Source of the DNA: Angustibacter luteus
GTDB lineage: Bacteria > Actinomycetota > Actinomycetes > Actinomycetales > Angustibacteraceae
DNA length: 64,000 nucleotides
Reading direction: 5' to 3'
Assembly (NCBI RefSeq): GCF_039541115.1
Contig: NZ_BAABFP010000004.1
Coordinates: forward strand, 422,005-486,004
In this document: positions 23,535 through 48,833 of the stretch, in pieces
How positions within the stretch are numbered: the first letter of the stretch is position 1
How the letters are laid out: each line of letters opens with the position of its first letter
Notes under the pieces: generated by a model
Told to the model about the DNA's origin: nothing
The model's input: only the letters and a program-made list of their open reading frames with translations
Database searches by the model: none
Translations under genes and position numbers: made by a program

Positions 23535-24509
23535 TCAGCTGGTGGCGTCAGCCACCAGCCTCGCCGCCTCCTCTGGCTCAATTCCACCAACTCCCAGGCC
23601 CGCGACAACCTGTCCGTCACGGGTCAGGGGAACTCCGCCCCCGACGTACAACTCCCGATGGGGGTGCAGAGTCGCCAAAGCGAATGCCTGCCCCCCATAC
23701 AGATCCGCAAGGCGATGGCTGGGCATGCCATGCCTAGCTGCGGCCCGGGAGACTGCCCCGGCAACGTGCGTTGCAGCAGCGACGGCTCCGTCCATGTGGT
23801 CCTGCTGGATCGGATCACCCCCCCGGTCCACCACGACTGTCGCCACCTCGAGGCCACGCGACGCCGCCAAGGTGAGGACGTGATCGCAAACTTCTTTGGC
23901 CCAGAGCAACTCGGGCTGATGCGAGGCAGTCGGTGCCGGCTTCATGCCGAGGCTGTCCTCCGCGGGCACCACGAGATCCCCGAAACGGTCCTTCCAGAGG
24001 ATGGTGTCGTCCCCATGTTGGCCGACATAGGGACCGCCGAGCGCGTAGGAGATGATGAGATCCTCAGGATTTGCCGGACTCCCCTCAGCGCTGACCAACT
24101 CGGGCGCAACGCCCGCGGGCAGGAACGGACTGACCGTGGCGCCCGAGGCCGCGATGCCGCCGAGGATCTCGCCAGACTCCGTGAGGATTTGCATCCCGCC
24201 GCCGCCGGGAAAGACGGACTCTGGAGAGACCTGCATAAAGCCCCAAGCCATGATGGCTGGAGCTGCCGCGATCCTGTCCTTGTGGACACCGCTTGCGAGT
24301 TGTTGTGTCCCCGAGATCCAGGCCTTGGAAACCGCACGCCCCATCCCGCCCGGCCCACCGAAGTCGAGCCGTGAGGCGCTTATGAGGGTCCCACTCGCTC
24401 CGACAACCGCGATGCTCCCGCGAACCCCAAGCTGCTCCGCCTTGTCGACGGCTCGAGAGACCATGGCGCGGGCATCGTCCAAGCGGACATCGCGTGGGTG
24501 AGGAGTCAT
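23535..24509 (-). CDS. Double GlcG/HbpS-like (DUF336) protein
   Basis: A 324-residue protein with two tandem GlcG/HbpS-type domains: residues about 8-160 (ARAMVSRAVDKAEQLG to VFPGGGGMQILTESGEILGG) and about 195-320 (HVLTLAASRGLEVATVVVDR to LYVGGGVPLTRDGQVVAGLG). Single-domain members bind heme or cobalamin or are encoded beside catabolic oxidoreductases such as glycolate oxidase; a fused pair is less common. AAGGG lies eight bases before the ATG. No signal peptide. Three GGACC-type boxes lie upstream, placing it with the monooxygenase/transport regulon. Confidence 0.85.
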   Translation of the reverse strand: MTPHPRDVRLDDARAMVSRAVDKAEQLGVRGSIAVVGASGTLISASRLDFGGPGGMGRAVSKAWISGTQQLASGVHKDRIAAAPAIMAWGFMQVSPESVFPGGGGMQILTESGEILGGIAASGATVSPFLPAGVAPELVSAEGSPANPEDLIISYALGGPYVGQHGDDTILWKDRFGDLVVPAEDSLGMKPAPTASHQPELLWAKEVCDHVLTLAASRGLEVATVVVDRGGDPIQQDHMDGAVAAATHVAGAVSRAAARHGMPSHRLADLYGGQAFALATLHPHRELYVGGGVPLTRDGQVVAGLGVGGIEPEEAARLVADATS

Positions 24510-24621: not shown

Positions 24622-24660
24622 GGACCGGTCTACGGACCACTGGTCCCCCAAGTGGACCAA
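24622..24660. promoter_or_regulatory. GGACCAnTGGwCC operator cluster, site 2
   Basis: The perfect palindrome GGACCACTGGTCC at 24634-24646 is flanked by half-like copies GGACCGGTC (24622-24630) and GTGGACCAA (24652-24660), about 110-150 bases upstream of the GlcG/HbpS gene and 95 bases beyond the end of the tetR gene. It is the most symmetrical copy of the repeated box. Confidence 0.65.
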
Positions 24661-25508: not shown

Positions 25509-25590
25509 TACCCTCAAGTCGACGACAGCAAACTGGCGCGGCTCCGCCTCCACAGGTACCTCCGTCGCCGTGCAGGTTCGGAGTAGAGGC

Positions 25591-27519: not shown

Positions 27520-29085
27520 TCAGCTAGTCAAGGACAACTGTGAAAGCAAGTCCTCGACCAGGGCCTTGGTTTCATCCGGACCTGCGGCGACGCCGAAGAG
27601 GAAGAAGTCGGGTCGGGCAAGAAGTGCGGTGACCTCGTTCGCCGCGAAGAACTCTGAGTAGGTGCCGTCAAGGTCTTGCAGGTCATCCGGTCCCTCCCCG
27701 AGGACCAGGACGTGCACGCCCAGCCTTTCGAGCACCTCCACCTGCGCGTCAGACAAGGCCGTGTGCAGCGGCGACGAGCTGATCAGCTGGAACCCAGAAC
27801 CGATGAGGCTATCCAGCAGTCCTTCCTGGCCGGCGAGCCGGACGCGTCCTTGCGGGCTCAGTGCACCAGTCGGCCCGGCTGCGAGTTCATCGCCGGACTT
27901 GTGCAGGATTCCTTGCATGAGTCCCGGCACGGGCGGTTCAGGGCTTGGCGAGGACCGAAGGAAGGCGTCCCGCTCAGCCACCTTGACGGGATCGTTCTCA
28001 ATTGCTCGCTCCCAGGCGATGACGGAGCCATGAATGAGTGGGAGGACGTGGGACAGTCTCTCCGGCTCATAGCTGTCAAGGAGAGCCTCGGTGGCCCGTC
28101 CGGTCAAAATGAGATCCAGCTTCCACGCGAGGTTGCTCGCATCGCGCATGGCCGAGCAGGAACCCTGACCGATCCCAGGCGTCATGGTGTGTGCGGCGTC
28201 ACCGCCGATGAAGACCCTGCCCTTGCGGAACGTCTTGGCGTACTGAGAGCGGAACTTGTAGACGACGCGACGGGTGATGCTCACCTGCTCACGGTTGATG
28301 CCGAGCTTACGCTCGAGGAACTCGTAGGCCTTCTCATGCTCGAGCAAGTCGTCGTTCGTGGCTGTCGGGTCCATGACCCGCACGTCGGTCCGGCATCTGT
28401 TCGCACCATTGGGGCCCCAGAACCACGGACCGTTCGGGTCGAGATGCACGGTTGTCGTCGGCGGCTGCAACTCGGGGTCGACGATGTCGAAGTCGGTCAG
28501 AACCCACCGATCCTCGTGGTTCTGCACCACTTCGATGGGGATGCCGAGGGACTCGCGCACGAAGCTGGAGGCGCCGTCCATGCCGATGACATAGGTTGCC
28601 GAGATCGCGACAGCTGCTCCTTCGTTGGTGACGCCGGCCCGCTTCGAGGGAGCTGCCGTGATGCGAATCTCGTCCCCAGTGTCGTCGAGGCCGGTGACCT
28701 CGTAGCCCCAGTGAATGGTCACGGTGGGGCACTCGCGGATGCGAGCCTCCATCGCCTTCTCGATATTGGGCTGGTGAAGGCTCAGGCGGTACGGATGTCC
28801 GCATAGCTTGAAACCCCAGTCCGCCGTCGTTGCGATCTCGCCATTGGCGCCGTAGAAGATCGCACCTGGTTGGGGAATCGACCCCTCGAGCGCCTCGTCG
28901 GGATTTGCCGTGTGCTGCATGAGGCGGGCCGTTTCACCGTCCAGAGTGCTCATCCGCGGAAGGCCGTATGGAACAGCGGACTTTTCGAAGACGACAACCC
29001 TGTGCCCCGCCTGCCCGAGTAGTGAGGCGAGCGCCTCACCGCCGGGGCCGAAGCCCACGATTGCCACGTCAGCGTCGACGCTCAT
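27520..29085 (-). CDS. FAD-dependent monooxygenase (MhpA-like), second copy
   Basis: A 521-residue flavoprotein hydroxylase, distinct from the one at 25591. FAD motif VGFGPGGEALASLLGQAG, DG motif GMDGASSFVRESL and GD motif GGDAAHTMTPGIGQG are intact; the C-terminal 100 residues again resemble a degenerate thioredoxin-like domain. GGGAG lies six bases upstream of ATG 29085; the 17 codons before it in frame lack a ribosome site. An operator-like box and partial repeat lie about 100-130 bases upstream. The usual reaction is ring hydroxylation of a phenolic acid before ring cleavage; the substrate is unproven. Confidence 0.92.
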   Translation of the reverse strand: MSVDADVAIVGFGPGGEALASLLGQAGHRVVVFEKSAVPYGLPRMSTLDGETARLMQHTANPDEALEGSIPQPGAIFYGANGEIATTADWGFKLCGHPYRLSLHQPNIEKAMEARIRECPTVTIHWGYEVTGLDDTGDEIRITAAPSKRAGVTNEGAAVAISATYVIGMDGASSFVRESLGIPIEVVQNHEDRWVLTDFDIVDPELQPPTTTVHLDPNGPWFWGPNGANRCRTDVRVMDPTATNDDLLEHEKAYEFLERKLGINREQVSITRRVVYKFRSQYAKTFRKGRVFIGGDAAHTMTPGIGQGSCSAMRDASNLAWKLDLILTGRATEALLDSYEPERLSHVLPLIHGSVIAWERAIENDPVKVAERDAFLRSSPSPEPPVPGLMQGILHKSGDELAAGPTGALSPQGRVRLAGQEGLLDSLIGSGFQLISSSPLHTALSDAQVEVLERLGVHVLVLGEGPDDLQDLDGTYSEFFAANEVTALLARPDFFLFGVAAGPDETKALVEDLLSQLSLTS

Positions 29086-29459
29086 CTGTACTCCCACGAT
29101 GTCGTTTTCGAGGTGAAGGGTGATGTCTCCGTGCAATCTTTTGACCGAGCTTGCGGTGGAGCATAGCCTCTAATTGGCCCGCAGAGTAGACCAATGGTCC
29201 GCATGATGGACCGGGCATCGTTGAGGGGGAGGATGAGGCGGTGGCGACGTCAACCGGGATCATCTGTACGTATCGCACCCCGGAATCGACGCCGCCAGAA
29301 CCGCCTTCGGCTCCGGTTCGCCCGTCGCTACGGTGGTCGACGCGGCCCGGGGGTGCGGTGCGGGACTTGGCAGCGGTGGCCCGACCAGCCTGCTACCCCC
29401 GGGACCAGGCGTCGAGAGCTAGTGGCTCATCGACAGACCCAGTTGGGCCCGTCGGGCAG
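29086..29459. other. Gap between monooxygenase and iclR genes
   Basis: About 370 bases with no convincing gene. It holds the promoter side of the leftward monooxygenase, including a 31-base segment (29185-29215) nearly repeated at 30483-30513. The right part is GC-rich with no recognised motif; an open frame from 29241 gives a proline/serine-rich product without family features. Confidence 0.5.
29185..29215. promoter_or_regulatory. GGACCAnTGGwCC operator, site 3
   Basis: Core GACCAATGGTC at 29189-29199 is a near-perfect palindrome, followed by a half-box TGGACCGG at 29207-29214. Over 31 bases it matches site 5 (30483-30513) at 26 positions in the same orientation. It is about 100 bases upstream of the monooxygenase start at 29085. 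Confidence 0.65.
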
Positions 29460-30227
29460 CTACAGGCCGACCCTCGGTAGCGAGGCTGCAATCGCGTCCG
29501 CCGTCGCCCTGACCTTCTCGCCGTAGGCCGTGCGCAACCGAGCGGGCATACGCGACGCCGGCGCGGAAATGGACAACGAGGCCGCCGGCCTTGGCCCTGG
29601 CGGGTGAATGGCTGCGGCCACGGACACCACGCCGTCCATGAGCTCTTCGTCGCTCACGGCGTACCCTCTCGCGCGCACTCGCTCGAGCTCCTTCCGGAGC
29701 GTGTCCGGCTTGGTAATGCTGCGCGAAGTCGTTGGACTCAGGCTGTGACTGAGGTACCGCTCGACATCCTCGGCCGGGAGGCTTGCTAGGAACGCCTTTC
29801 CGTTCGAGCTCGCGTGCAGGGGGGCCTGAGAACCGAGCGGGGAGAAGGCCCGGAGGGCGTGCCGACTGTCGATGCGCTCGATGAGCACCACCTGTTCGCC
29901 ATCGAGCACCATCAGGTGAATGGTCTCGCCCACGTCAGCGGCGAGGGCGTTCATGTGTGGCAGGGCGGCCTGGCGCAGGCCGCCGCGTTCGCCGACTGTG
30001 CTGCCCACGATAAACGCGCGAGTGCCGACGACCCAGCGTCCGGCGCTGTCGCTCTCGATCCAACCCGCGTCGGCGAGGGTCGCCAGGGCTCGCTGGACGG
30101 TGCTTTTCGGAAGGCGTACCTGACGGGTCAGCTCGCTGAGACCGATCGGCTGCAACTGCGACAGCGCCTCCAGGACGTCGAGCGCGACCCGCACGCTTCG
30201 GTTGCCCCTGTTGTTGTCCTCGGTCAT
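29460..30227 (-). CDS. IclR family transcriptional regulator
   Basis: A 255-residue regulator: N-terminal winged helix (about residues 8-65, with GLSELTRQVRLPKSTVQRAL) and C-terminal IclR effector domain (about 80-245, with HLMVLDGEQVVLIERIDS and the NGKAFLASLP segment). IclR proteins often activate or repress aromatic-acid and glyoxylate-bypass genes after binding a small acid. It is divergent from the transport operon, and its promoter side carries TGGACTAGTCCA. It is the best candidate to bind the repeated GGACCAnTGGwCC boxes in 21-38 kb, and the presence of malate synthase G downstream fits the IclR habit of controlling glyoxylate metabolism. Confidence 0.9.
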   Translation of the reverse strand: MTEDNNRGNRSVRVALDVLEALSQLQPIGLSELTRQVRLPKSTVQRALATLADAGWIESDSAGRWVVGTRAFIVGSTVGERGGLRQAALPHMNALAADVGETIHLMVLDGEQVVLIERIDSRHALRAFSPLGSQAPLHASSNGKAFLASLPAEDVERYLSHSLSPTTSRSITKPDTLRKELERVRARGYAVSDEELMDGVVSVAAAIHPPGPRPAASLSISAPASRMPARLRTAYGEKVRATADAIAASLPRVGL

Positions 30228-30482: not shown

Positions 30483-30513
30483 AGTAGACCATTGGTCCGC
30501 TGGACGGACCAGG
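30483..30513. promoter_or_regulatory. GGACCAnTGGwCC operator, site 5
   Basis: Core GACCATTGGTC at 30487-30497 followed by TGGACGGACCA at 30501-30511, about 95-120 bases upstream of livG. This is the closest relative of site 3 (26 of 31 bases). The rest of the 377-base iclR-livG gap shows no gene. Confidence 0.65.
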
Positions 30514-30604: not shown

Positions 30605-31372
30605 GTGATGGCACTGCTCGAGGTTCAGGATCTTCGCGTGACCTACGGCGGAGTCGTAGCGGTCGACGGGGTGAGCTTCTCGGTCGAGCCAGGATCGATC
30701 GTTGGTCTCATTGGCCCCAACGGTGCGGGCAAGACATCCCTGATCGACGCCCTGACCGGCTACCACCGTCCGTCCGCGGGTCGCGTGGTCTTCGCTGGCG
30801 ACGATGTCACAAGCGTGAAGGCGGACAGACGCTCCCGCCTCGGATTGGCCCGAACCTTCCAGTCCGTCGAACTGTTCGATGACCTCACCGTTGAGGAGAA
30901 CCTGCTCGTGGCCGCGGAGCAGGTCGGTCTGCTTCAGCCGTTGAGGGACATGTTTCTGCCGCATCGGCCGCGAGGCGCCGAGGCCGTCGGTTGGGCGACG
31001 TCCCTGCTCAACCTCAATTCGCTGTCCGGGCGCATGCCGACCGATCTGTCCCACGGCCAGCGGAAGCTGGTCAGCGTTGGCCGGGCCCTCGCGCAGCGCC
31101 CGCGCTTGGTGCTTCTTGACGAGCCGGCAGCTGGACTCGATTCCCGCGAAAGCTTGGAGCTCGGCCAGGAGCTTCGGAACCTGCCAGACAACGACGTCAG
31201 TGTTCTCCTCGTCGACCACGACATGGGCCTGGTTCTCGGTGTCTGCGACCACGTCCTCGTCCTGGACTTCGGCCGAATCATCGCAGCCGGCAGCCCTGAC
31301 GAGATCCGAGCGAACGCGACAGTGATCGAGGCCTACCTCGGCAGCGGCGGGTCGGAGGAATCCCATGGCTAG
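30605..31372 (+). CDS. livG: Branched-chain amide-type ABC transporter ATP-binding protein LivG
   Basis: A 255-residue ABC ATPase of the HAAT importer family. Walker A GPNGAGKT, Q-loop in LARTFQSVEL, signature LSHGQRK, Walker B LVLLDEPAAGLD and H-loop DHD are intact. GTG 30605 is followed directly by an ATG; AAGGG upstream could serve either. It starts the five-gene importer/malate-synthase run and overlaps livF by eight bases. These importers carry branched-chain amino acids, amides, urea or aromatic acids; the neighbours favour an organic acid. Confidence 0.93.
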   Translation: MMALLEVQDLRVTYGGVVAVDGVSFSVEPGSIVGLIGPNGAGKTSLIDALTGYHRPSAGRVVFAGDDVTSVKADRRSRLGLARTFQSVELFDDLTVEENLLVAAEQVGLLQPLRDMFLPHRPRGAEAVGWATSLLNLNSLSGRMPTDLSHGQRKLVSVGRALAQRPRLVLLDEPAAGLDSRESLELGQELRNLPDNDVSVLLVDHDMGLVLGVCDHVLVLDFGRIIAAGSPDEIRANATVIEAYLGSGGSEESHG

Positions 31373-32183
31373 GTCAAGGGCCGTCGCCTCGGACGGACCT
31401 GAGGTGGCCAAGCAGCCGGTGCTCTCTCTGGCCGGGCTTTCTGCGGGCTACTTCGGTACGCCGGTGGTCCGGGACCTTGCGCTAACGGTCCAGCGCGGCG
31501 AGGTGATCGCGCTGTTGGGGGCCAACGGTGCCGGCAAGACCACCACCGTGAACACGATCGGAGGATTGCTGAAGCCGATCAGCGGCGAGGTCAGACTCAA
31601 CGGAGCCAGCGTCGGCGGGACGCCGGCGCATCTCTTGGCACGCAAGGGCGTCGCACTCGTTCCGGAGAACCGCGCGTTGTTCCCCGGATTGACCACACGT
31701 GAACACCTGCGACTTGCCAAGTCCGCGGACGGCTTGTCGCAACAGGACCTGCTTGAACTGCTGCCCGAGCTTACGAAGTGCCTGGATCGGCGCGTCGGGC
31801 TCCTCTCAGGCGGCGAGCAACAAATGCTGGCTATGGGTCGCGCACTCATGGCTCGCCCAACACTCCTGATCATCGACGAAATGAGCATGGGGCTGGCTCC
31901 GGTCATCGTCGAACGACTACTTCCCGTGCTCAGGCGCGCAGCAGAGGACCTGGACACGGCTGTCCTTCTCGTCGAGCAGCACGTATCCCTGGCACTCCAG
32001 GTCGCCGATCGTGCATATGTGCTCAGTCACGGTCGACTTGTGTTGAGCGGCCATGCGGCCTCACTGCGCGAAGACCGAGAACTCCTTCGCAAGAGCTACA
32101 TGGGCGAGCTCGACGCCAGCGATATCCCGCACTCCGAGCAGGTCAATGGACACCCACCTGACATCCCCACGGATCAGAACTGA
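31365..32183 (+). CDS. livF: Branched-chain amide-type ABC transporter ATP-binding protein LivF
   Basis: A 272-residue second ABC ATPase. Walker A GANGAGKTT, signature LSGGEQQ, Walker B LLIIDEMSMGL (with Glu before Met rather than the usual EP) and H-loop EQH are present. About 20 residues precede the normal family start (VLSLAGLSAGY), and about 20 extra polar residues end the protein. Overlap with livG by eight bases indicates coupled translation. Confidence 0.93.
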   Translation: MARSRAVASDGPEVAKQPVLSLAGLSAGYFGTPVVRDLALTVQRGEVIALLGANGAGKTTTVNTIGGLLKPISGEVRLNGASVGGTPAHLLARKGVALVPENRALFPGLTTREHLRLAKSADGLSQQDLLELLPELTKCLDRRVGLLSGGEQQMLAMGRALMARPTLLIIDEMSMGLAPVIVERLLPVLRRAAEDLDTAVLLVEQHVSLALQVADRAYVLSHGRLVLSGHAASLREDRELLRKSYMGELDASDIPHSEQVNGHPPDIPTDQN

Positions 32184-32269
32184 CGCCACGTCGAAAGACC
32201 TGGCGGCTTCAACCAGAGGTACACGTTCACGCACGTCAGTCGCACATCGCACCCCCGAAAGGAACAGCA

Positions 32270-33514
32270 ATGAAGCGGAAGGTCCTCGTCACATACGGGG
32301 TGGCCGTGGCTGCCGTGGCGCTGCTCACGGCATGTAGCAACTCGAGCCCCTCGTCATCGTCATCGGCCACCCCGTCTGGATCCGCCGCTGCAGGCGCCGA
32401 TCCCTTCGCCACGCCGAACAAGGCGACCAAGAGCCCGATCGTTGTCGGGTTGGTGAACCTAGAGGCCGGACCCATCACTGCTCCTGGGTACCGGACGGCG
32501 GCGGAGGCCGCGGCCTCCTACGTGAATGACTACCTGGGCGGCGTGGGTGGACACCCGATCAAGATCGAGTCCTGCGTCACCGACGGTCAGCCAGCCACTT
32601 CACAGCGCTGCGCCAATCAGCTCCTGGACAAGAAGCCCGTCTTCATTCTCGGTGGAGCTGACGTAGGAGGCGCCGGCGCGTACCCCGCGTGGACGCGAGC
32701 GAACCTGGCCGTCGTTGGAGCCGTCCCGCTCACACCTGTGGAGCAGACGTACAAGAACGGCGTGATCTTCTCCGCCATCTCGGGCCCAGACAACGCGGCG
32801 GCCGTGTCGTACGCGTCGCAGAAGGGCGGCAAGAGCGCCTCCGTGGTCTACACGTCTGACGCGGCCGGGACCCACAGCGGTGAGCTGTTCCAGCAGTTCT
32901 TCAAGAACACCGGCTACACGACGGTCAAGGCGGTGCCTGTGGCGCCGACCGCAGCAGACCTCAGTGCGCAGGCCGCGCAGGTGGTCACGGCCAAGTCGGA
33001 CACGGTGGCAGTGAACACTCCCGTGGGCTGCGGCAGCATGTTGAAGACCCTTGATCAGCTTGGCTTCAAGGGCACGAAGGTTGTGATTGACCCCTGCGCC
33101 GATCCGAAGGTGATCGCTGCAGCGGGCGCAGGTGCTGAGGGGATGATCTGGGGCGGTCCCTTCGACCCGCCTGGGGCATCCGCTGACTCCACGCTGATGG
33201 CAGCGGTTATCAAGAAGTACCAGCCCGCCACGGCACCAATCACGGCGAGCTACATGGGCTTCCAGGCCGTCATGAACGCCCAGAAGTACTTGTCGCCGAT
33301 CTCCGACAAGTTGACGACCGAGTCCATCGTCGGCGCCTTCCAGGCCGGCAGCAACAACGCCAACTTCGCAGCGCACCCGTTCACGTGCGACGGCAAGCAG
33401 ATCCCCGGCGCACCGTCGATCTGCAACGGCTACCAGCACATCTTCCAGTACTCGAAGGGCGCCACCACAACGGTCGGTGACTGGGTGAACCCCGCACCTG
33501 CCATGGGTGGCTGA
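32270..33514 (+). CDS. ABC transporter substrate-binding lipoprotein (Leu/Ile/Val-binding type)
   Basis: A 414-residue periplasmic-binding-protein-fold lipoprotein. Signal peptide residues 1-21 end in a lipobox LLTAC with Cys22, followed by a serine-rich linker. The type I binding fold shows PIVVGLVNLEAGP, GHPIKIESCVTDGQ and NTPVGCGSML; four or more cysteines in the mature part may form disulfides. It captures the imported acid or amide outside the membrane. A 15-bp stem-loop directly after the gene probably keeps its mRNA more abundant than that of the permease. Confidence 0.92.
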   Translation: MKRKVLVTYGVAVAAVALLTACSNSSPSSSSSATPSGSAAAGADPFATPNKATKSPIVVGLVNLEAGPITAPGYRTAAEAAASYVNDYLGGVGGHPIKIESCVTDGQPATSQRCANQLLDKKPVFILGGADVGGAGAYPAWTRANLAVVGAVPLTPVEQTYKNGVIFSAISGPDNAAAVSYASQKGGKSASVVYTSDAAGTHSGELFQQFFKNTGYTTVKAVPVAPTAADLSAQAAQVVTAKSDTVAVNTPVGCGSMLKTLDQLGFKGTKVVIDPCADPKVIAAAGAGAEGMIWGGPFDPPGASADSTLMAAVIKKYQPATAPITASYMGFQAVMNAQKYLSPISDKLTTESIVGAFQAGSNNANFAAHPFTCDGKQIPGAPSICNGYQHIFQYSKGATTTVGDWVNPAPAMGG

Positions 33515-33525
33515 CCGAGAACACA

Positions 33526-33565
33526 GGGTTCGCCCGCTCGGCGCTGCTGTCGAGCGGGCGAACCC
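33526..33565 (+). terminator. Large perfect stem-loop between binding protein and permease genes
   Basis: Arms GGGTTCGCCCGCTCG and CGAGCGGGCGAACCC pair perfectly over 15 bp around a ten-base loop (33541-33550). It starts 12 bases after the binding-protein stop and ends 33 bases before the permease start. There is no U-run. As the same operon continues, partial termination or protection of the upstream mRNA from 3' decay is likelier than a full stop; this pattern is known for binding-protein genes. Confidence 0.75.
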
Positions 33566-33598
33566 GACCATCCATCCTTCTCGACGACACGAGGCGAC

Positions 33599-35629
33599 AT
33601 GACCGAAACCATGCTCTTCTTGGTACTCGGGTTCGGCGCGGGTGCGATCTACGGCATTCTTGCCCTGGGCCTCGTGCTGAAGTATCGGGCCGCGGGTGTC
33701 GTTGACTTTGCGCATGGCGCAGTCGCGATGATGTGCGCCTTCCAATTCGTGTCCCTGCGCGACGACGGCGACTTCACGTTTCCCTGGCCCGTGCTCCCGC
33801 ACACACTGCACATCTCTGACACCGGGGTACCGCTCCCGACCAGCATCGCGTGGACGCTGATCTTCTCGGCTCTGCTCGGGGCCTTGCTCTACTACGTGGT
33901 CTACAGGCCATTGCAGCGGTCGACGCCGCTCACCAAGGTCTGCGCCTCGGTCGGCGTGATGCTGTACCTGCAGGCCACGGCCGTCCTCAACTACGGCACC
34001 TCCGGTCGATCCACGGCTCCCGTCCTGCCCAGCAGCACGATCACTATCGCTGGGGTGCCGATCCCGACCGACAGGTTGTGGCTCAGTGCCCTTGTCGTCC
34101 TACTCGCTCTCGTGCTCGCCTACGTGTACCGCCGAACGCTATTCGGGCTGCGCACCAGAGCTGGAGCCGAGAGCGATGTTGGCTCCGCGGTCATGGGCCT
34201 GTCGTCCACTCGCATCGCGATGCAGAACTGGATTCTCGCGACGGTCCTCGCTGGCGTCTCAGGCATTCTCCTGTCGCCCATCTCGAACCTGGACCCGACT
34301 TCGTACACGCTCTTCATCGTTCCCGCGCTGTGTGTCGCGCTCCTGGCAGGATTCCGCTCGTTCATCGGCACCGCACTTGCCGGACTAGCCCTCGGCATGG
34401 CCCAGTCCCAGATCGTGCACATTCTCTCGTCGCACCAGAACCTGCCCCAGCAAGGAATCTCAGAAGGTATCCCGTTCCTTGTCATCCTCGTCATCATGAC
34501 CTGGCGCGGTCGAAGCCTCATCCCTCGTGGCGAGCTAGCCGACCCCGACTATCCGAAGGTTGGTCGGCCCAGCGCTCCCTTCAAGACCGCGCTGCTGACC
34601 CTGATTGCCGGCTCAGTCGTCCTGATGCTGCTGCACGGCTCACTCAAGGCCGCCTTCATGACCTCGATCATCTGGACCTGTCTGGCACTCTCGCTTGTAG
34701 TCCTGACTGGATTTGTCGGACAGGTTTCATTGGCGCAGTTGAGCTTCGCAGGATTCTCCGGCTTCATCGTGGCACGCGTCTCCGCAGACCTGGGCATCAA
34801 CTTCCCCTTGTCGCTGCTTATCGCCTCGGTCGCCGCGGTACCGCTGGGTCTGCTCATCGGACTGCCGGCCCTGCGCGTCCGCGGCGTCAACTTGGCCATC
34901 GTGACGCTCGCCGCTGGATCCGCGCTCGACGTCCTCCTGTTCAACAACGCGAAGTTCAGCGGAGGGGACAGCGGTTTGACCGTCCCGACCCCGACGTTCA
35001 TGGGCTTCAACTTGGGGATTGCCTCAGGACCTGACTACCCGCGAACCATCTTTGGTGTTCTCATCCTCGCGATCGTCATCGGCGTCGGCGTCGTGGTCGC
35101 GCGGCTGCGCAACTCATCCACTGGGCGCATGCTCTTGGCCGTACGTTCGAACGAGCGCGCAGCCGCGGCGTCGGGCATCAATGTTCCCCGAGCCAAGCTG
35201 TTGGCGTTCGGCATCTCGAGCTTCATCGCGGGCCTTGGTGGCGTGCTCCTGGCGTATCAGCAAGGCAGCGTGTCCGCGTCCTCGTTCGGGGTATTCCAGT
35301 CCCTTGGCCTGCTCGCCATCGCGTACGTCGCCGGCATAGGTCGAATTTCTGGCGCCGTCGTAGCGGGCCTGCTCCTGTCGGGTGCGGGACTCATGGTCAG
35401 CGCCTTCGACAAGTACCTCGGGCTCGGGATCTACCAGGCGGTCATCGCTGGCATCGCGCTCACGTTGACCGCTATCCAGAACCCGAACGGAATCGCAACG
35501 CCGATCCCGAGCGGGAAGAGCCCAGCGAACGCACTGGAGCGTTGGGGCCACTGGCTCGTCGGCCGTGGGGGTCACACGGCTGTGGCCGGAGAGAGTCAAC
35601 CGGTGACCTCCCGTCAGGACGCAGCATGA
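33599..35629 (+). CDS. Fused LivH-LivM ABC permease
   Basis: A 676-residue membrane protein joining two HAAT permease subunits: LivH-like part about residues 1-305 (GFGAGAIYGILALGLVLKYR, then VDFAHGAVAM) and LivM-like part about 325-640 (TGFVGQVSLAQLSFAGFSGF, then GLPALRVRGVNLAIVTLA and RSNERAAAASGINVPRAKLL). Each half shows about eight hydrophobic segments and the EAA-like coupling region. The two subunits are separate proteins in enterobacteria; the fusion is known in actinobacteria. Forms the channel fed by the lipoprotein and driven by LivG/LivF. Confidence 0.92.
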   Translation: MTETMLFLVLGFGAGAIYGILALGLVLKYRAAGVVDFAHGAVAMMCAFQFVSLRDDGDFTFPWPVLPHTLHISDTGVPLPTSIAWTLIFSALLGALLYYVVYRPLQRSTPLTKVCASVGVMLYLQATAVLNYGTSGRSTAPVLPSSTITIAGVPIPTDRLWLSALVVLLALVLAYVYRRTLFGLRTRAGAESDVGSAVMGLSSTRIAMQNWILATVLAGVSGILLSPISNLDPTSYTLFIVPALCVALLAGFRSFIGTALAGLALGMAQSQIVHILSSHQNLPQQGISEGIPFLVILVIMTWRGRSLIPRGELADPDYPKVGRPSAPFKTALLTLIAGSVVLMLLHGSLKAAFMTSIIWTCLALSLVVLTGFVGQVSLAQLSFAGFSGFIVARVSADLGINFPLSLLIASVAAVPLGLLIGLPALRVRGVNLAIVTLAAGSALDVLLFNNAKFSGGDSGLTVPTPTFMGFNLGIASGPDYPRTIFGVLILAIVIGVGVVVARLRNSSTGRMLLAVRSNERAAAASGINVPRAKLLAFGISSFIAGLGGVLLAYQQGSVSASSFGVFQSLGLLAIAYVAGIGRISGAVVAGLLLSGAGLMVSAFDKYLGLGIYQAVIAGIALTLTAIQNPNGIATPIPSGKSPANALERWGHWLVGRGGHTAVAGESQPVTSRQDAA

Positions 35630-35719: not shown

Positions 35720-37900
35720 GTGATCACAAGGGTCGCTGAGGGCGAGCTGCGGGTCGCCCGCGAACTGCACGATTTCGTGCGCCTGGAAGCGCTCCCCGGA
35801 ACAGGGTTGGACGAGAGAGGCTTCTGGTCGGGCGCCGCCGAGATGGTCGGTGATCTCCGGCCAGGTTTGAACGCCCTCCTGCAAGAGCGCGTGGCGATAC
35901 AAGCTGCCCTCGACGTGTACAACAGTGATCAGAATCTTCCAAAGCAAGGTGGGGGCTACGAGGCATTCCTTCGTTCGATCGAGTACGTCGTCCCCGAGCC
36001 AGAGGACTTCGAGATCACGACAACTCGCGTCGATCAGGAAATATCAAGTCAGCCGGGACCTCAGCTCGTGGTGCCGCTGCTCAATGCCAGGTTCGCAACG
36101 AACGCGGCGAACGCGCGGTGGGGCTCGCTTTACGACGCGCTCTATGGGACCGATGCGGTTCCCGAGTCTGGTCGGTTAGCGCGCAGCCGGGGGTACAACC
36201 CGGCACGCGGGGACGAGGTCATCGGCCGAGGCAGGCGCTTCTTGGACGAGATCTTCCCGCTGACCGTTGGCTCGCATCGAAGCGCAACGTCGTATGAGGT
36301 TGGTGCTGCCGGCCTGGTGGTCCACCAAGGTGAAGAAGTCACCGTCCTCCAACGCCCCGAAGCCTTCATCGGATACATCGGCCCTCGGGAAGGCCCCTCC
36401 AGTGTCGTGCTCGTGCATCACGGGCTACACGTCATCCTCGAGTTCGACCGCGGCCACCAGATCGGTGCGAGAGACGCAGCCGGCATCTGCGACATCGTCG
36501 TCGAAGCTGCCGTCACAGCGATCATGGATCTTGAGGACTCTGTGGCTGCCGTCGACGCATCGGACAAGGTCCGCGGGTACCGAAACTGGCTTGGACTGAT
36601 GCAGGGGACACTGACGGCCGAGGTGGTCAAGAAGGATGCGTCCTTCACACGCCGGCTGCACGCGGATCGCGTGTTCAGGACGACCAGCGGCGGCGTAACC
36701 ACCCTCAAGGGCACTGCGCTGCTGATGGTGCGGCACGTCGGGCATCACATGACGACCGACTCAATCCTGGACTCTCAGGGGAACGAAGTACCCGAAGGAA
36801 TCGTGGATGCCCTCATCACCGCGGTCTGCGGTTTGCACGATCTCCGCGGTCCGCGGGCCGGTAGCAACTCACGGGTCGGCTCGATCTATGTGGTCAAGCC
36901 AAAGATGCACGGACCGAAGGAGGTTGCCTTCGCGTGTGAGCTCCTCCGTCGCACCGAGCAGCTCCTAGGTCTGGAGGCGTGCACGATCAAGATCGGCATC
37001 ATGGACGAGGAGCGCCGCACCTCCGCCAACCTCAAGGCATGCATCCATGCCGCCAGCGATCGCGTGGCATTCATCAATACGGGTTTCCTCGACCGGACTG
37101 GCGACGAGATTCACTCCTCGTTGTTGGCCGGACCAATGGTTCGCAAGGCTGCCATGAAGCGTCAGCCATGGATGCGCGAGTACGAGACGCAGAACGTGTC
37201 GATCGGACTGTCCTGCGGATTCCGGGGACGCGCTCAGATCGGCAAGGGCATGTGGCCGGCGCCCGACAACATGGCCGAGATGCTTGAGCAGAAGGTCTCG
37301 CATCCCTTGTCGGGCGCCAGCTGCGCCTGGGTTCCCTCACCAACAGCTGCCACTCTGCATGCCCTCCACTACCACGCCGTGGATGTCCTGACGCATCAGG
37401 CGGAGCTCGCCCGGCCATCTCGCCATCGAAACCTGGCGCAACTGCTGACAGTCCCCCTGGGGAACCCAGACCAATGGACATCCGAGCAGCGAAGCGCGGA
37501 GATCGATAACAACATTCAGGGCATCCTTGGGTACGCAGTTCGGTGGGTCAACGACGGAGTGGGCTGCTCTAAAGTGCCCGACATCGATGGCACCCCCCTC
37601 ATGGAGGACAGGGCGACCTGTCGGATCAGCTCGCAGATCGTCGCGAACTGGCTGCAGCACGGCGTTGTTGACACCGAGCAAGTTGAGGACTCGCTGCGTC
37701 GCATGGCTCTCGTCGTTGACGCCCAAAACGCAGACCAGCCTGCATATCAACCGATGGCCCCGTCATACGACGGAAGCGCTTTCCTCGCCGCCCGCGAACT
37801 TGTCATGTCGGCAGCAGAGCAGCCGTGTGGGTACACCGAACTGGTACTGCGCCGCTGGCGGCGCATTCAGAAGCGTGCCATCCCCGCGAAGCCACCCTGA
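35720..37900 (+). CDS. glcB: Malate synthase G
   Basis: A 726-residue monomeric malate synthase, which condenses glyoxylate and acetyl-CoA to malate. Signatures are VLVHHGLH-to-ITDLEDS-type block (IMDLEDSVAAVDASDK), RAGSNSRVGSIYVVKPKMHG, KIGIMDEERRTSANLKACI and FINTGFLDRTGDEIHSS. The GTG at 35720 starts VITRVAEGELRVAREL, which fits the family N-terminus; an earlier in-frame GTG (35654) would add 22 unrelated residues. It lies 90 bases after the permease in the same direction. Its presence implies that the imported compound yields glyoxylate or C2 units. Confidence 0.95.
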   Translation: MITRVAEGELRVARELHDFVRLEALPGTGLDERGFWSGAAEMVGDLRPGLNALLQERVAIQAALDVYNSDQNLPKQGGGYEAFLRSIEYVVPEPEDFEITTTRVDQEISSQPGPQLVVPLLNARFATNAANARWGSLYDALYGTDAVPESGRLARSRGYNPARGDEVIGRGRRFLDEIFPLTVGSHRSATSYEVGAAGLVVHQGEEVTVLQRPEAFIGYIGPREGPSSVVLVHHGLHVILEFDRGHQIGARDAAGICDIVVEAAVTAIMDLEDSVAAVDASDKVRGYRNWLGLMQGTLTAEVVKKDASFTRRLHADRVFRTTSGGVTTLKGTALLMVRHVGHHMTTDSILDSQGNEVPEGIVDALITAVCGLHDLRGPRAGSNSRVGSIYVVKPKMHGPKEVAFACELLRRTEQLLGLEACTIKIGIMDEERRTSANLKACIHAASDRVAFINTGFLDRTGDEIHSSLLAGPMVRKAAMKRQPWMREYETQNVSIGLSCGFRGRAQIGKGMWPAPDNMAEMLEQKVSHPLSGASCAWVPSPTAATLHALHYHAVDVLTHQAELARPSRHRNLAQLLTVPLGNPDQWTSEQRSAEIDNNIQGILGYAVRWVNDGVGCSKVPDIDGTPLMEDRATCRISSQIVANWLQHGVVDTEQVEDSLRRMALVVDAQNADQPAYQPMAPSYDGSAFLAARELVMSAAEQPCGYTELVLRRWRRIQKRAIPAKPP

Positions 37901-38058
37901 CCGCCAACGCCCCAGGACCGGAGCCACGTTTGCCTCGGCCCGAACTCGTTGACCTCAGTCCGAGGGCCCTAGGGAGGGTCCGAGGACAAGTCGGTTTCAG
38001 GAACAGTGGGAGACCGCCCCCGACGCATTTGCGTCGGCTCAGACCTGGCCCGCCATGC

Positions 38059-38072
38059 GGACCAGTGGACCG
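38059..38072. promoter_or_regulatory. GGACCAnTGGwCC operator, site 6
   Basis: GGACCAGTGGACCG lies 71-84 bases upstream of the CoA-transferase start, in the 242-base gap after malate synthase. It places the CoA-transferase/dehydrogenase pair in the same putative regulon as livG and the monooxygenase. Confidence 0.55.
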
Positions 38073-38142
38073 TATAGCGGTTCGCATGACATGCTGGTGC
38101 CTCCGCCAGTCATCGCGTGAGCCTTGACCCGTCTGGAGAATC

Positions 38143-39381
38143 GTGTCCGAACTACCACTGAGTGGAGTACGCGTCGTCGATCTGACACGTGCTCTGGCTG
38201 GCCCGTTCTGCACCTCACTGCTCGGCGACTTCGGTGCTGACGTCGTGAAGGTCGAGGGACTGCCGCTCGGCGACGCCACACGACACTGGCCGCCGTTCAA
38301 TGGAGCGCGAAGCCTCTACTTCCTGAGCACGAACCGCAACAAGCGGTCGATTGCGCTCGACCTGCGCACGCCGGAAGCCAAGTCGATCTTGTCTGACCTT
38401 GTCGCCGACGCCGACGTCCTCGTGGAGAACTTTCGCCCCGGTGTGCTGACCAAGCTTGGCTTGGACCCAGCACGGCTGCGGCAAGAGCGACCGGACCTCG
38501 TGATCTCTAGCATCAGTGGATTCGGCGAGGTCGGCCCGATGAGTCAGGACGTCGGACTCGATCAGGTGGCCCAGGGCATGGCCGGGCTGATGTCGGTTAC
38601 TGGTGCAGGAGACCAGACACCGATGAGAGTCGGCATTCCGGTGGTCGACCTCGCAGCCGGCATGCTCTCCGCCTTCGGGGTCGCCGCCAGCCTGGCTGGA
38701 CGGGCGCACAATGGGCGCGCCAGCCGGGTGAACGCCTCGCTCCTTGAGAGCGCGATCTCGATGATGACGTTCCAAGCGCAGCGCTACCTCTCGCTTGGCG
38801 AAGTCCCCGATCCGCAGGGCAACGACCATCCATTGATCTCGCCGTACGGCACCTTCCAGGCATCCGACGGCAGCCTGAACGTCGCCGTTGGGTCCCAAGC
38901 CCAATGGGTGTCGCTCTGTGACGTGCTCGGGTCTCCGGAGCTCGCCTCGCGCCCCGAATACGCCGAGCCCGCGCAGCGCACACACAATCGCCGTGCGCTG
39001 TCAGATGAGCTCAACGCCCTCTTTATGACCCGGCCCGCCGATGACTGGATGGCGGCCCTGCGGCAAGTCGGGGTGCCATGCGGACCGGTGTACGCGATGG
39101 ACGAGGTCTTCGCGGATGCCCAAGTGCAAGCCCTCGGGATGGTTCGAACCGTCGGAGAAGGCCCGGAAGCCGATGTGCTCCTTCGAGGTCCCCTCTGGGT
39201 CGATGAGCAGGCCAGTGGAATCACCCGACGACCACCACTATTGGGTGAGCACAGCCGCGAGGTCCTTCACGAGCTCGGCTACGTCGACGACCTGGTGGAC
39301 AACCTCGTGCGCCGCGGTGTCGTTGGAACGGCCGACCGGGACATCGCCGCTGCGCAGTCCACTGCGGAGGCCAGATCGTGA
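38143..39381 (+). CDS. Class III (CaiB/BaiF) CoA-transferase
   Basis: A 412-residue family III CoA-transferase, which moves CoA from a donor thioester to a carboxylic acid. The predicted catalytic aspartate is Asp140 in GLDQVAQGMAGLMSVTG; N-terminal SGVRVVDLTRALAGP and GADVVKVE, ENFRPG and C-terminal RRPPLLGEHSREVLHELGY are family blocks. Full length. The GTG start has GGAG five bases upstream. It overlaps the dehydrogenase by four bases (GTGA), suggesting activation of the substrate followed directly by alpha,beta-desaturation. Confidence 0.93.
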   Translation: MSELPLSGVRVVDLTRALAGPFCTSLLGDFGADVVKVEGLPLGDATRHWPPFNGARSLYFLSTNRNKRSIALDLRTPEAKSILSDLVADADVLVENFRPGVLTKLGLDPARLRQERPDLVISSISGFGEVGPMSQDVGLDQVAQGMAGLMSVTGAGDQTPMRVGIPVVDLAAGMLSAFGVAASLAGRAHNGRASRVNASLLESAISMMTFQAQRYLSLGEVPDPQGNDHPLISPYGTFQASDGSLNVAVGSQAQWVSLCDVLGSPELASRPEYAEPAQRTHNRRALSDELNALFMTRPADDWMAALRQVGVPCGPVYAMDEVFADAQVQALGMVRTVGEGPEADVLLRGPLWVDEQASGITRRPPLLGEHSREVLHELGYVDDLVDNLVRRGVVGTADRDIAAAQSTAEARS

Positions 39382-41177
39382 GCGATGAGGCCGGTTCGCT
39401 GATCCTGTCCGAACCGGACCTACATTTCATGCTGTACGACTGGCTCGATGTCGAGAAGCTCACTGAGCATGAGCGATTTGCCGAACACTCGCGCGAGGTC
39501 TTCGATGCTGTGCTCGACCTGGCCGCCGATCTCGCGACGCTGAACTTCGCCCCGCACAATCGCCTCAGCGACCTAAATGAGCCGACCTTCGACGGTGCAC
39601 ACGTAGCCGTCATACCTGAGGTCGCGCAGGCGCTACAGGCCTACGGCAGGTCGGGTCTGCTCGGCAGCGCCATGGACGAAGCAGTCGGTGGCGGACAGCT
39701 GCCGCAAGTCGTCGGTCGTGCATGCTTCACGTGGCTGCAGGCGGCCAACTCGGCCACGGCTGCATATCCACTACTCACCATGGGCAACGCCAACCTCCTG
39801 GCCACCTTCGGCACGCCACAGCAGATCGAACAATTCGTTCGCCCGATGGTCGAGGGCCGGTTCTTCGGCACGATGTGCTTGTCGGAGTCGCAGGCAGGCT
39901 CATCGCTCGGCGACGTGACCACCCGCGCAGTGCCGCAGCCGGACGGCACTTTTCGACTCTTCGGCGACAAGATGTGGATCAGTGGCGGCGACCACGAGAT
40001 GAGCGAGAACATCCTGCACCTCGTGCTGGCGCGGGTCGAAGGAGCGCCCGCCGGCGTTCGGGGACTGAGTCTGTTTCTGGTGCCGCGCATACTCCTGGGC
40101 GAGGACGGCAGCCCGGGGCAACGCAATGACGTGATCGCCACCGGGCTGAATCACAAGATGGGCTACCGAGGCACCGTCAACGCCGTGCTGGCCTTCGGCA
40201 GCGGAAGCCACCTCCCCGACGGTGAGCCCGGAGCGATCGGTCAGCTGGTCGGAGAGCTCGGACACGGCCTCGATCACATGTTCCACATGATGAACGAGGC
40301 CCGGGTTGCAGTGGGCGCCAGCGCCGTCGGACTGGGGTACACGAGCTACCTGCACGCCCTTGCCTACGCGCGGGCTCGTTCGCAGGGGAGACTTCCTGGT
40401 CACAAGGATCCACGAACGCCTCAGGTCGCCCTCATCGTCCACCCGGACGTTCGTCGGATGTTGCTCGCCAGCAAGTCGTACGTCGAGGGCGGACTCGCCC
40501 TGGTTCTGTACGCCGCCAAGCTTCTCGACCTGAAAGCAATCGCCGACGACGAAGAAGAGGCTGCGCGCCTCGACCTCCTGTTGGGTGTGCTCACCCCGAT
40601 CGTTAAGGCCTGGCCCTCACAGTGGTGCCGCAAGGCCAATGATCTCTCCATCCAGATACATGGCGGCGCCGGCTACACGCGGGACTTCCCGGTCGAACAG
40701 TTCTATCGAGATGCTCGGTTGAACCCGATCCATGAAGGCACCGACGGCATACAGGCGCTGGACCTACTCGTGCGAAAGCTGGCGACGCCTACGCTGACTG
40801 AGCTCGAGGTGCTGCGAGCATCCTGTCAAGCAACGATAGATAAGACTCCCGAGGAGCTTTCCGCCTTCGCGGGGCAGCTAGGCGGAGCTGTCGACCTTCT
40901 CGTTGGAGTGACACAGCGGTTGCGCGACGCTGGCGACCCACTGTTGCTCGCTGCTCAGGCCACTGCGTTCGCCGATGCGGCCGGACACATTGTGGTTGCC
41001 TGGATGTGGCTCGAGCAGATGATCGCTGCCCAACGTGGTGCCAACCGAATCCATGAGGGCAAGCGGCTGGCCGGTCGGTACTTCTTCGCCTACGAGCTCC
41101 CCATGGCAGTTCGCACACTCGACCTCGTCGACGATCACGACCGCATCGTCGTGGATCTGGATGACAACTTCCTGTGA
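39378..41177 (+). CDS. Long acyl-CoA dehydrogenase with C-terminal extension (DmdC-like)
   Basis: A 599-residue FAD acyl-CoA dehydrogenase, longer than the usual ~380-400 residues. Core blocks are MCLSESQAGSSLGDVTTRA (FAD site), GDKMWISGGDHE, LNHKMGYRGT, IQIHGGAGYTRDFPVEQFYR and the active-site region IHEGTDGIQALDL; a further ~125-residue helical C-terminal domain follows. This architecture is shared with 3-methylmercaptopropionyl-CoA dehydrogenase (DmdC) and related long enzymes. It starts within the CoA-transferase stop (GTGA). The real substrate is unknown; DmdC activity is only one possibility. Confidence 0.92.
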   Translation: MSDEAGSLILSEPDLHFMLYDWLDVEKLTEHERFAEHSREVFDAVLDLAADLATLNFAPHNRLSDLNEPTFDGAHVAVIPEVAQALQAYGRSGLLGSAMDEAVGGGQLPQVVGRACFTWLQAANSATAAYPLLTMGNANLLATFGTPQQIEQFVRPMVEGRFFGTMCLSESQAGSSLGDVTTRAVPQPDGTFRLFGDKMWISGGDHEMSENILHLVLARVEGAPAGVRGLSLFLVPRILLGEDGSPGQRNDVIATGLNHKMGYRGTVNAVLAFGSGSHLPDGEPGAIGQLVGELGHGLDHMFHMMNEARVAVGASAVGLGYTSYLHALAYARARSQGRLPGHKDPRTPQVALIVHPDVRRMLLASKSYVEGGLALVLYAAKLLDLKAIADDEEEAARLDLLLGVLTPIVKAWPSQWCRKANDLSIQIHGGAGYTRDFPVEQFYRDARLNPIHEGTDGIQALDLLVRKLATPTLTELEVLRASCQATIDKTPEELSAFAGQLGGAVDLLVGVTQRLRDAGDPLLLAAQATAFADAAGHIVVAWMWLEQMIAAQRGANRIHEGKRLAGRYFFAYELPMAVRTLDLVDDHDRIVVDLDDNFL

Positions 41178-42188: not shown

Positions 42189-42318
42189 CCGCGGCAGATC
42201 CGGGCGAGCGGTCGCCCTCACCGCGGCAGATCCGGGCGAGCGGTCGCCCTCACCGCGGCAGATCCGGGCGAGCGGTCGCCCTCACCGCGGCAGATCCGGG
42301 CGAGCGTAGGCGCCCTCA
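42189..42318 (+). repeat. Four tandem 32-bp repeats
   Basis: Three identical abutting 32-bp units (42189-42220, 42221-42252, 42253-42284), each beginning CCGCGGCAGATCCGGGCGAG and ending GTCGCCCTCA, and a fourth diverged unit from 42285. Another partial copy (CGCCCTCAACGCGGCAGG) follows at 42311. Related single copies occur at 41428, 41843, 42995 and 43670, always between genes. There are no unique spacers. Confidence 0.85.
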
Positions 42319-42378
42319 ACGCGGCAGGAGCGGATGGCTACAGCCGCTGGTGCGGGGGGGGCGTCGGGTGACCCTCGC

Positions 42379-48595: not shown

Positions 48596-48639
48596 GACTA
48601 CGGATCAGAAGGTTAGGGGTTCGAATCCCTTCGGGCGCG
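48596..48639 (+). other. tRNA-Arg(ACG) 3' fragment: att site
   Basis: The sequence from GACTACGGATC through the T-arm GGGGTTCGAATCCC to the acceptor strand CGGGCGC and discriminator G is the 3' portion of a tRNA-Arg with anticodon ACG. The preceding bases do not contain the matching 5' half (no GCGCCCG acceptor strand or D-arm), so this is not an intact gene. A 3' tRNA segment starting in the anticodon arm is the typical duplication left by tyrosine-recombinase integration. Its natural downstream terminator is retained, which marks this as the chromosome-distal end of an element lying to the left. Confidence 0.85.
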
Positions 48640-48672
48640 CACCGTCTTGAGACAGCGGTACTACTACGGATC

Positions 48673-48710
48673 AGGCCCCTGACCTGCGGAAACGCGGTTG
48701 GGGGCCTTGT
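48673..48710 (+). terminator. Rho-independent-like terminator behind tRNA fragment
   Basis: Left arm AGGCCCCTGACCTGCG, GAAA tetraloop and right arm CGCGGTTGGGGGCCT pair with small bulges, followed by TTGTT. The position 34 bases after the tRNA 3' end is normal for a tRNA terminator. Confidence 0.75.
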
Positions 48711-48833
48711 TCGTGCCGCCTTTTGCGGGTCCGCTTGCCCCCGCAGCCCGGTCACCCGTCGGTTGTCTGGAGGAACGAGCCCGAGTTGACGGAGGGGCCT
48801 CCCTCGAGATCGGGCTGGGCTATCTGCCAGGGA

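Follow-up and report, generated by a model that had tools for sequence, protein, structure and literature searches.

What is a malate synthase doing between a nutrient importer and a pair of acyl-CoA enzymes, and what does such a set of genes break down? The question is raised by a window of 64,000 nucleotides of the Angustibacter luteus genome (contig NZ_BAABFP010000004.1), in which a LIV-type importer (30608-35629), a malate synthase G (MSG; 35720-37900) and a CoA-transferase/acyl-CoA dehydrogenase pair (38143-41177) follow one another head to tail. Gene and family calls bear out the first-pass annotation in placing MSG directly 3' of a complete importer and 5' of the pair, and its coordinates, 35720-41177, are correct, the MSG start being a GTG at 35720. 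The importer comprises a LivG-like ATPase (30608-31372, + strand), a LivF-like ATPase (31365-32183, +), a single substrate-binding lipoprotein (32270-33514, +; PF13458, lipobox LLTAC), whose matches to solved HAAT proteins are weak (best E 2.4e-11), and a fused LivH-LivM permease (33599-35629, +). The MSG gene (+ strand) encodes a protein assigned to the malate synthase G family on its score against NF002825 (1085 bits, cut-off 565; TIGR01345 gives 975.6, just below 989.15), its PF20658 insertion domain and the alignment of solved MSGs over 714 residues; its motifs RHVGH, MDEERRT, LDRTGDE and MEDRAT, which we take to be the surroundings of the active site, align with a solved enzyme without gaps. 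The CoA-transferase (38143-39381, +; PF02515, 405 bits) is classed as class III (CaiB/BaiF) on that domain and on the Asp of VVDLAAG, conserved with respect to solved relatives, and its gene overlaps by four bases that of a long acyl-CoA dehydrogenase (39378-41177, +; PF00441 and a PF12806 tail), in which the Glu of IHEGTDGIQ corresponds to an alignment position occupied by Ala in chain 8pu5. Scans for promoters, terminators and Rfam families returned nothing above chance.

The matching operator boxes that had been claimed for this locus are genuine, and the regulon is broader than the earlier description had it, as the palindrome GGACCANTGGTCC (allowing at most one mismatch) is found 5' of four transcription units: those of a two-domain HbpS-like protein (23535-24509, - strand; PF03928, GlcG/DUF336, two stretches by Pfam), of an MhpA-like FAD monooxygenase (FADmo2; 27520-29136, -; NF004829 at 387.7 bits, cut-off 390), hereafter the flavin hydroxylase, of the importer and MSG, and of the CoA-transferase pair. 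The first box, GGACCACTGGTCC (24634-24646), is a perfect palindrome 125 nt upstream of the HbpS-like gene, with an extra half-site GTGGACCA downstream; AGACCAATGGTCC (29188-29200), followed by half-site ATGGACCG, lies 52 nt 5' of the TTG taken as the start of the hydroxylase gene; AGACCATTGGTCC (30486-30498), followed by half-site ACGGACCA, precedes the importer and MSG; and GGACCAGTGGACC (38059-38071) precedes the CoA-transferase/dehydrogenase pair. At this stringency the window holds seven copies, these four being the intergenic ones, and the genome 25; four boxes in the intergenic DNA of the 20-42 kb segment (2862 bases of such DNA) compare with a mean of 0.013 and a maximum of 1 in 300 shuffles. 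It is because of this position and the genome-wide clustering that the boxes were judged real, and not because of the window search with up to two mismatches, which on its own is at chance level (7 against 4.35 expected, reached by 14 of 100 shuffles). An ambiguous copy, GGACCACTGGACC (21286-21298), was not counted: a dienelactone-hydrolase-like gene has its inferred ATG (21386) some 94 nt further on, but the copy can also be read as codons DHWT of a longer frame. Copies at 37130 (within MSG) and 48831 were put down to chance, and copies outside the window were rejected as regulon members, all eight inspected, out of 18, falling inside predicted genes. Box arrangement and spacing match the IclR group 2 operator as given in the part of PMC8222616 drawn upon here (TGRAACA-N1-2-TGTTYCA, often with a third box), one base per half-site deviating and a third half-site accompanying three of the four boxes.

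The likely owner of the boxes, and the protein that would bind them, is an IclR-family regulator encoded mid-locus (29460-30227, -; PF01614 and PF09339). Its best NCBIfam model is BhcR (197 bits, below the cut-off of 350), which prompted us to consider glyoxylate as the direct inducer, an idea disfavoured by mapping of the effector pocket: at the five positions whose residues contact glyoxylate oxygens in IclR, AllR and BhcR (160, 161, 212, 239 and 241, E. coli numbering; PMC11323563 Table 1), the regulator has Ser, Asn, Ser, Ser and Ser versus Gly, Ala, Asp, Ser and Ser. As three of the five contacts are changed, glyoxylate is probably not the inducer, and the regulator does not appear to belong to the glyoxylate-sensing group.

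The reading that we prefer, with a probability of about one half, is that of a locally regulated, substrate-induced catabolic module, residing on a mobilizable island integrated at a tRNA-Arg gene and bringing its own glyoxylate sink. The IclR-family protein would read the boxes before the four transcription units; in the presence of the acid, the importer, flavin hydroxylase, CoA-transferase, dehydrogenase and MSG would be made; the CoA-transferase would activate the acid or one of its breakdown products, the dehydrogenase would start beta-oxidation, and MSG would join glyoxylate, which may derive mainly from the substrate, to acetyl-CoA, whereby carbon would reach the TCA cycle in the form of malate. 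That the enzymes act in this order is our inference. The substrate is probably an aromatic or ring-derived acid, given that relatives of the hydroxylase adjoin ring-cleavage genes and that IclR regulons are, in the portion of PMC8222616 used, mostly aromatic. Of the earlier suggestion that the set implies a substrate yielding glyoxylate or acetyl-CoA, the part that stands is that of a single regulated catabolic set whose MSG implies both glyoxylate and acetyl-CoA.

On the side of this module reading are the four clustered intergenic boxes, whose form fits IclR group 2 apart from one base per half-site and which in three cases have a third half-site, the island features, and the company that MSG keeps elsewhere, where it adjoins direct glyoxylate sources (glycolate oxidase type; allantoin/ureidoglycolate) and where HbpS-like/heme-binding/DUF336 genes lie within approximately 3 kb of it at 6 of the 11 other MSG loci read. 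On the opposite side, no obvious glyoxylate-releasing enzyme, hydratase, thiolase or ring-cleaving dioxygenase is found under a box, the IclR pocket is as described, relatives of the dehydrogenase occur in ordinary beta-oxidation surroundings (thiolase, SDR and MaoC neighbours), and no box (at most one mismatch) is present between genes at the 21 other loci scanned.

MSG is the sole malate synthase of the genome (the only PF01274 match), and isocitrate lyase was not found in the genome search; therefore, MSG does not serve the classical glyoxylate bypass. Crotonyl-CoA carboxylase/reductase (Ccr) is present (601.8 bits, cut-off 378.55) next to thiolase, methylmalonyl-CoA epimerase and MeaB genes, and from Ccr above its cut-off together with the missing isocitrate lyase the host is predicted to use the ethylmalonyl-CoA pathway. 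It could thus be argued that the substrate gives acetyl-CoA only (via the CoA-transferase, the dehydrogenase and beta-oxidation encoded elsewhere), that the lyase step of the ethylmalonyl-CoA pathway makes the glyoxylate, and that MSG is merely the induced last step to malate; the Ccr surroundings, the lack of isocitrate lyase and a CoA ester lyase-like gene adjoining an acyl-CoA dehydrogenase gene on contig 7 agree with this. However, none of the nine other Ccr-bearing relatives has a match at E<=1e-80 in a search confined to the G type of malate synthase, so the ethylmalonyl-CoA pathway seems to work without MSG in this order and MSG appears to track the module and not the ethylmalonyl-CoA core. 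We consider this explanation unlikely.

Quite improbable, in turn, is an imported methylsuccinate-, mesaconate- or alkylsuccinate-like dicarboxylate, which the CoA-transferase would activate and the dehydrogenase convert to mesaconyl-CoA, with a hydratase and a lyase encoded elsewhere releasing glyoxylate and propionyl-CoA and MSG taking up the glyoxylate. What suggests it is a close plasmid relative of the IclR protein (41% over 238 residues) in Rhodococcus rhodochrous GD02, whose gene lies back to back with genes for a lyase, a PrpD-like protein, a CaiB-type CoA-transferase, a MaoC protein and an acyl-CoA dehydrogenase, along with matches of the window CoA-transferase to succinate-glutarate and mesaconate CoA-transferase models, far below the cut-offs. 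Nevertheless, two further IclR relatives score about equally and have unrelated gene surroundings, the dehydrogenase is of the long PF12806 type and matches the methylsuccinyl-CoA dehydrogenase 8ciw weakly (50 bits), and the flavin hydroxylase would be left unexplained.

The whole gene set is cargo of an element of approximately 50 kb with 64% GC (versus ~72%), flanked by 126-bp direct repeats (98.4% identical, E 1.6e-60), of which the left one (C4:420504-420629, just outside the window) lies at the 3' end of tRNA-Arg(acg) and the right, attR-like one is at 48596-48720. With its integrase, relaxase, tRNA repeats and compositional step, it is an integrative mobilizable element, and it is a mosaic. 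A mosaic island might have acquired MSG as a mere passenger, landed 3' of an importer for an unrelated substrate during assembly and having no metabolic link to it, and the adjacency of importer and MSG is indeed seen at none of the 11 other MSG loci; yet MSG and the HbpS-like gene, usual partners, share the box despite a distance of 11 kb, and we hold such an accident to be very unlikely.

The dehydrogenase had also been proposed to be of DmdC type. In a tree whose rows were chosen by likeness to the window enzyme, with a single DmdC reference, it falls in a clade of 80 rows (48-64% identity) apart from the group of 6ijc, which we take to be DmdC (its PDB name reads only "acyl-CoA dehydrogenase family protein") and which groups with 8png and 8pns, being 48-50% identical to these two. 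The window enzyme is 33% identical to 6ijc and 33-35% over the three, and a position outside the DmdC clade was an outcome that the first-pass annotation had itself named as counting against its proposal. The part of the review consulted (PMC5395565) portrays DmdC as broad and of fatty-acid type, so that a place in its clade would in any case not indicate dimethylsulfoniopropionate (DMSP). Catabolism of DMSP or methylmercaptopropionate via a DmdC-type dehydrogenase, although the enzyme shares the long acyl-CoA dehydrogenase superfamily and 285 bits with 6ijc, is therefore scarcely credible and was discarded, considering the clade and the 33% identity, the CoA-transferase standing where a DmdB ligase would be expected, the neighbouring M24 protein matching Xaa-Pro dipeptidases and having 20 PDB matches of which none bears the name DMSP lyase, and MSG having no role in the established DMSP route as covered in that part of PMC5395565.

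Individually, the genes are ordinary; their combination has no counterpart in the samples searched. With three or four candidates scored per genome (three for the hydroxylase), so that misses are possible, a search of 396 genomes of the phylum found the binding lipoprotein in its own genome and in one more, at 31% identity. The CoA-transferase likewise has one counterpart outside its own genome among the 396, at 49% and adjoining an importer and an enoyl-CoA hydratase, and among 394 genomes of the class the flavin hydroxylase (E<=1e-105) is confined to its own. Dehydrogenase homologues occur in 3 of 59 relatives and at 80 loci of a genome-contig collection; no MSG homologue lies near them at these 80 loci or at two relatives' loci (L072 and L084 by a cruder scan), and CoA-transferase homologues (31-34%) are present at two (L024 and L069), adjacent at neither. 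Plasmid records contain related parts, never the full set, and nothing on the combination was found in the literature searched, which is no proof of its absence from print.

Among known systems, glycolate operons (glcD/glcE/glcF, a glcG-like gene and glcB, i.e., MSG, with GlcC or IclR-type regulators; for example on plasmids of Pseudomonas frederiksbergensis and Mycolicibacterium arabiense) share MSG, its HbpS/GlcG-like partner and one local regulator with the regulon described here, which, however, lacks glycolate oxidase and has a LIV-type importer, flavin hydroxylase, CoA-transferase and acyl-CoA dehydrogenase. From the PF12806 dehydrogenases 8png, 8pns and 6ijc the window enzyme differs in forming its own clade, whereas domain make-up and catalytic Glu are common to it, these three and FadE5. 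Elements of the clc type are tRNA-integrated mobilizable or conjugative islands with catabolic cargo; the present island resembles them in tRNA 3'-end repeats, tyrosine integrase, relaxase and catabolic cargo, and differs in tRNA, host and cargo, and in that the parts read showed genes for mobilization only. The aromatic regulons of PcaU, PobR and HmgR, as far as the part of PMC8222616 used describes them, are alike in having an IclR protein, a palindrome with a third half-site, and importer and hydroxylase targets, and unlike in the half-site (TGGACCA here, not TGRAACA), in MSG being a target here and in no ring-cleaving enzyme standing under the box.

A bolder and distinctly tentative version of the preferred module reading, which we would not expect to hold in full, is that the island disseminates an undescribed route, dependent on a hydroxylase and on CoA, that cuts glyoxylate from an imported acid, with MSG and the GlcG-like partner under the same operator, such that an ethylmalonyl-CoA host devoid of the glyoxylate bypass gains a complete induced sink together with the very pathway needing it. 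If the module reading is true, a catabolic island can arrive with the step that ties it to central metabolism, and a regulon defined by four boxes and a single regulator would offer a direct route to the substrate through the acid releasing the IclR protein. Furthermore, because nine other Ccr-bearing relatives seem to be without MSG, the system would offer a test of whether actinomycetes need a malate synthase after the ethylmalonyl-CoA pathway.

The genes in question form a head-to-tail series on the forward strand, which starts with two importer ATPases (30608-32183), continues through a binding lipoprotein (32270-33514), a fused LivH-LivM permease (33599-35629), malate synthase G (MSG; 35720-37900) and a class III CoA-transferase (38143-39381), and closes with a 599-residue acyl-CoA dehydrogenase (39378-41177); an IclR-family regulator (29460-30227) is encoded upstream of the importer on the reverse strand, as is an MhpA-like flavin monooxygenase (27520-29136). 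Profile matches agreed with the coordinates and gene calls of the series in the first-pass annotation, whose observation that this gene set stands under matching operator-like boxes was confirmed and extended. A 17-bp inverted repeat between the binding-protein and permease genes (33526-33565; one mismatch, 6-base loop) is perhaps an mRNA-stabilising hairpin that raises binding protein output.

At no more than one mismatch, the window has seven copies of the palindrome GGACCANTGGTCC, out of 25 in the whole 4.16-Mb genome. Four of the seven are intergenic, preceding a two-domain HbpS-like gene (24634, a perfect palindrome), the flavin monooxygenase (29188), the importer-MSG operon (30486) and the CoA-transferase/dehydrogenase pair (38059). 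These four were observed in 2862 intergenic bases against a shuffle mean of 0.013 (maximum 1; 300 dinucleotide shuffles), and the Poisson probability of six copies in 16.8 kb, a count taking in an ambiguous copy at 21286 and one inside MSG, is near 2e-10 given the density outside the window; with up to two mismatches, the motif was not above chance in a window-only count. Elsewhere in the genome, all eight of the copies fetched (of 18) are intragenic, such copies often encoding Asp-His-Trp, and 21 other loci, including those of IclR relatives, contain no intergenic copy at up to one mismatch. All but one of the four boxes are followed, some ten bases downstream, by a third half-site, an arrangement matching the IclR group 2 and three-box sites described in PMC8222616, from which the window boxes differ by one base per half-site. 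Judging by the position and form of the boxes, the adjoining IclR protein would be their binder. When its pocket is mapped onto E. coli IclR (residues numbered as in Table 1 of PMC11323563), Ser239 and Ser241 are retained, Gly160, Ala161 and Asp212 are replaced by Ser, Asn and Ser, and the hydrophobic patch reads Ala, Ala, Ala, Val; given these changes, glyoxylate sensing seems unlikely, and something bulkier, such as a pathway acid, is the more likely ligand.

The whole gene set, boxes included, is the cargo of an island of about 50 kb at tRNA-Arg(acg), reaching from position 420504 of the contig (C4), to the left of the window, to window position 48720. The island is bounded by a 126-bp direct repeat whose two copies are 98.4% identical. 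The left copy (C4:420504-420629) lies at the 3' end of the tRNA gene, outside the window, and is adjoined by a tyrosine integrase (PF00589; a frame of 425 codons); near the right copy (48596-48720) are genes for a relaxase, a NikA-like mobilization protein and a DUF2637 protein. G+C is 63-66% per 4-kb step over 1-44 kb (about 64%, against about 72% for the genome), approaching the genome value in the terminal 4 kb, where the mobilization genes are; 12 of 13 other stretches of the genome have 70-74%, and the thirteenth 68.6%. Directly downstream of the cluster, the island contains a tandem array of a 32-bp unit (42189-42327; 4.3 copies, 96% matches). At 3.4-17.1 kb it also carries 4-hydroxyphenylpyruvate-dioxygenase-like, CoA-transferase A/B-like, fumarylacetoacetate-hydrolase-like, enoyl-CoA hydratase and PhaC-like genes (several named by eye), probably an aromatic acid degradation cluster, and a second FAD monooxygenase (25588-27267) adjoins a TetR-type regulator, its relatives (34%) occurring with VOC dioxygenase, fumarylacetoacetate hydrolase and quinone oxidoreductase genes. 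Off the island, LigB-type dioxygenase, aldehyde dehydrogenase and FAA hydrolase genes (55115-58403), together with an HpcH/HpaI aldolase gene at about C4:497 kb, look like a homoprotocatechuate pathway.

The HbpS-like gene and MSG share an operator despite lying 11 kb apart, which favours a role for the regulon in handling glyoxylate. Among 11 other MSG loci (three genomes and eight plasmid records), six have a gene for an HbpS-like, heme-binding or DUF336 protein no more than about 3 kb from MSG, three have a glycolate-oxidase-type gene nearby (in two of these the role is deduced from an annotation as FAD-linked or FAD-binding protein), and one has purine-to-ureidoglycolate genes; in none of the 11 does a LIV importer, class III CoA-transferase or long dehydrogenase adjoin MSG. 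The main rival holds that acetyl-CoA is the only yield of the substrate and that the glyoxylate is made by the ethylmalonyl-CoA pathway. The window MSG is the one malate synthase of the genome, no isocitrate lyase was found there by a search positive in eight of 14 control genomes, and a single crotonyl-CoA carboxylase/reductase (Ccr; C2:271944-273134, on another contig) scores far above the cut-off and is adjoined by thiolase, methylmalonyl-CoA epimerase and MeaB genes. Across 59 genomes (this one and its relatives), Ccr occurs in ten (nine of the 58 others) and MSG, the one malate synthase form that the comparison covers, in four, both together only here, and neither MSG nor the dehydrogenase nor the flavin monooxygenase has a match in the Ccr-bearing sibling species; MSG thus goes with the cluster and not with the ethylmalonyl-CoA pathway.

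Of the first-pass interpretation, a substrate releasing glyoxylate or acetyl-CoA found partial support, and the DmdC/DMSP reading was rejected: in an 83-row tree (rows picked by likeness to the window enzyme, midpoint root, a single DmdC reference), the dehydrogenase falls within an 80-row clade, with the solved enzymes 6ijc, 8png and 8pns on the opposite side at full support. It is 33% identical to 6ijc, which we take to be the Roseovarius DmdC (the PDB name does not state this), and 64% to its nearest relative. The glutamate of its IHEGTDGIQ motif, presumably catalytic, is kept, the same position being Ala in chain 8pu5. Relatives adjoin thiolase, SDR and MaoC genes in Rhodococcus opacus and thiolase (named by eye from sequence) in Betaproteobacteria. 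DmdC enzymes are themselves described as broad in PMC5395565, butyryl-, valeryl- and caproyl-CoA having Km values below that of methylmercaptopropionate-CoA.

The gene contexts of relatives suggest a kind of substrate, an aromatic or ring-derived acid, and single out no one compound. CoA-transferase relatives (45-51%) neighbour amidase and enoyl-CoA hydratase genes, a xanthine dehydrogenase/PucR cluster, or an importer with enoyl-CoA hydratase; two loci of flavin monooxygenase relatives (38-39%) have an intradiol dioxygenase nearby, one with maleylacetate reductase and the other with dienelactone hydrolase and importer genes. One IclR relative, from Rhodococcus rhodochrous, is placed back to back with genes for a lyase, a CoA-transferase, a MaoC protein and a dehydrogenase, unlike two equally similar relatives. 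Such an acid would be taken up through the importer and hydroxylated by the flavin enzyme; the CoA-transferase would then activate a carboxylate and the dehydrogenase oxidise the CoA product, subsequent steps falling to enzymes encoded outside the boxed units (enoyl-CoA hydratase genes lie on the same island at 4.4-11.1 kb). Glyoxylate would be freed en route, and MSG would condense it with acetyl-CoA. The system is best read as a mobile catabolic regulon that brings its own malate synthase.
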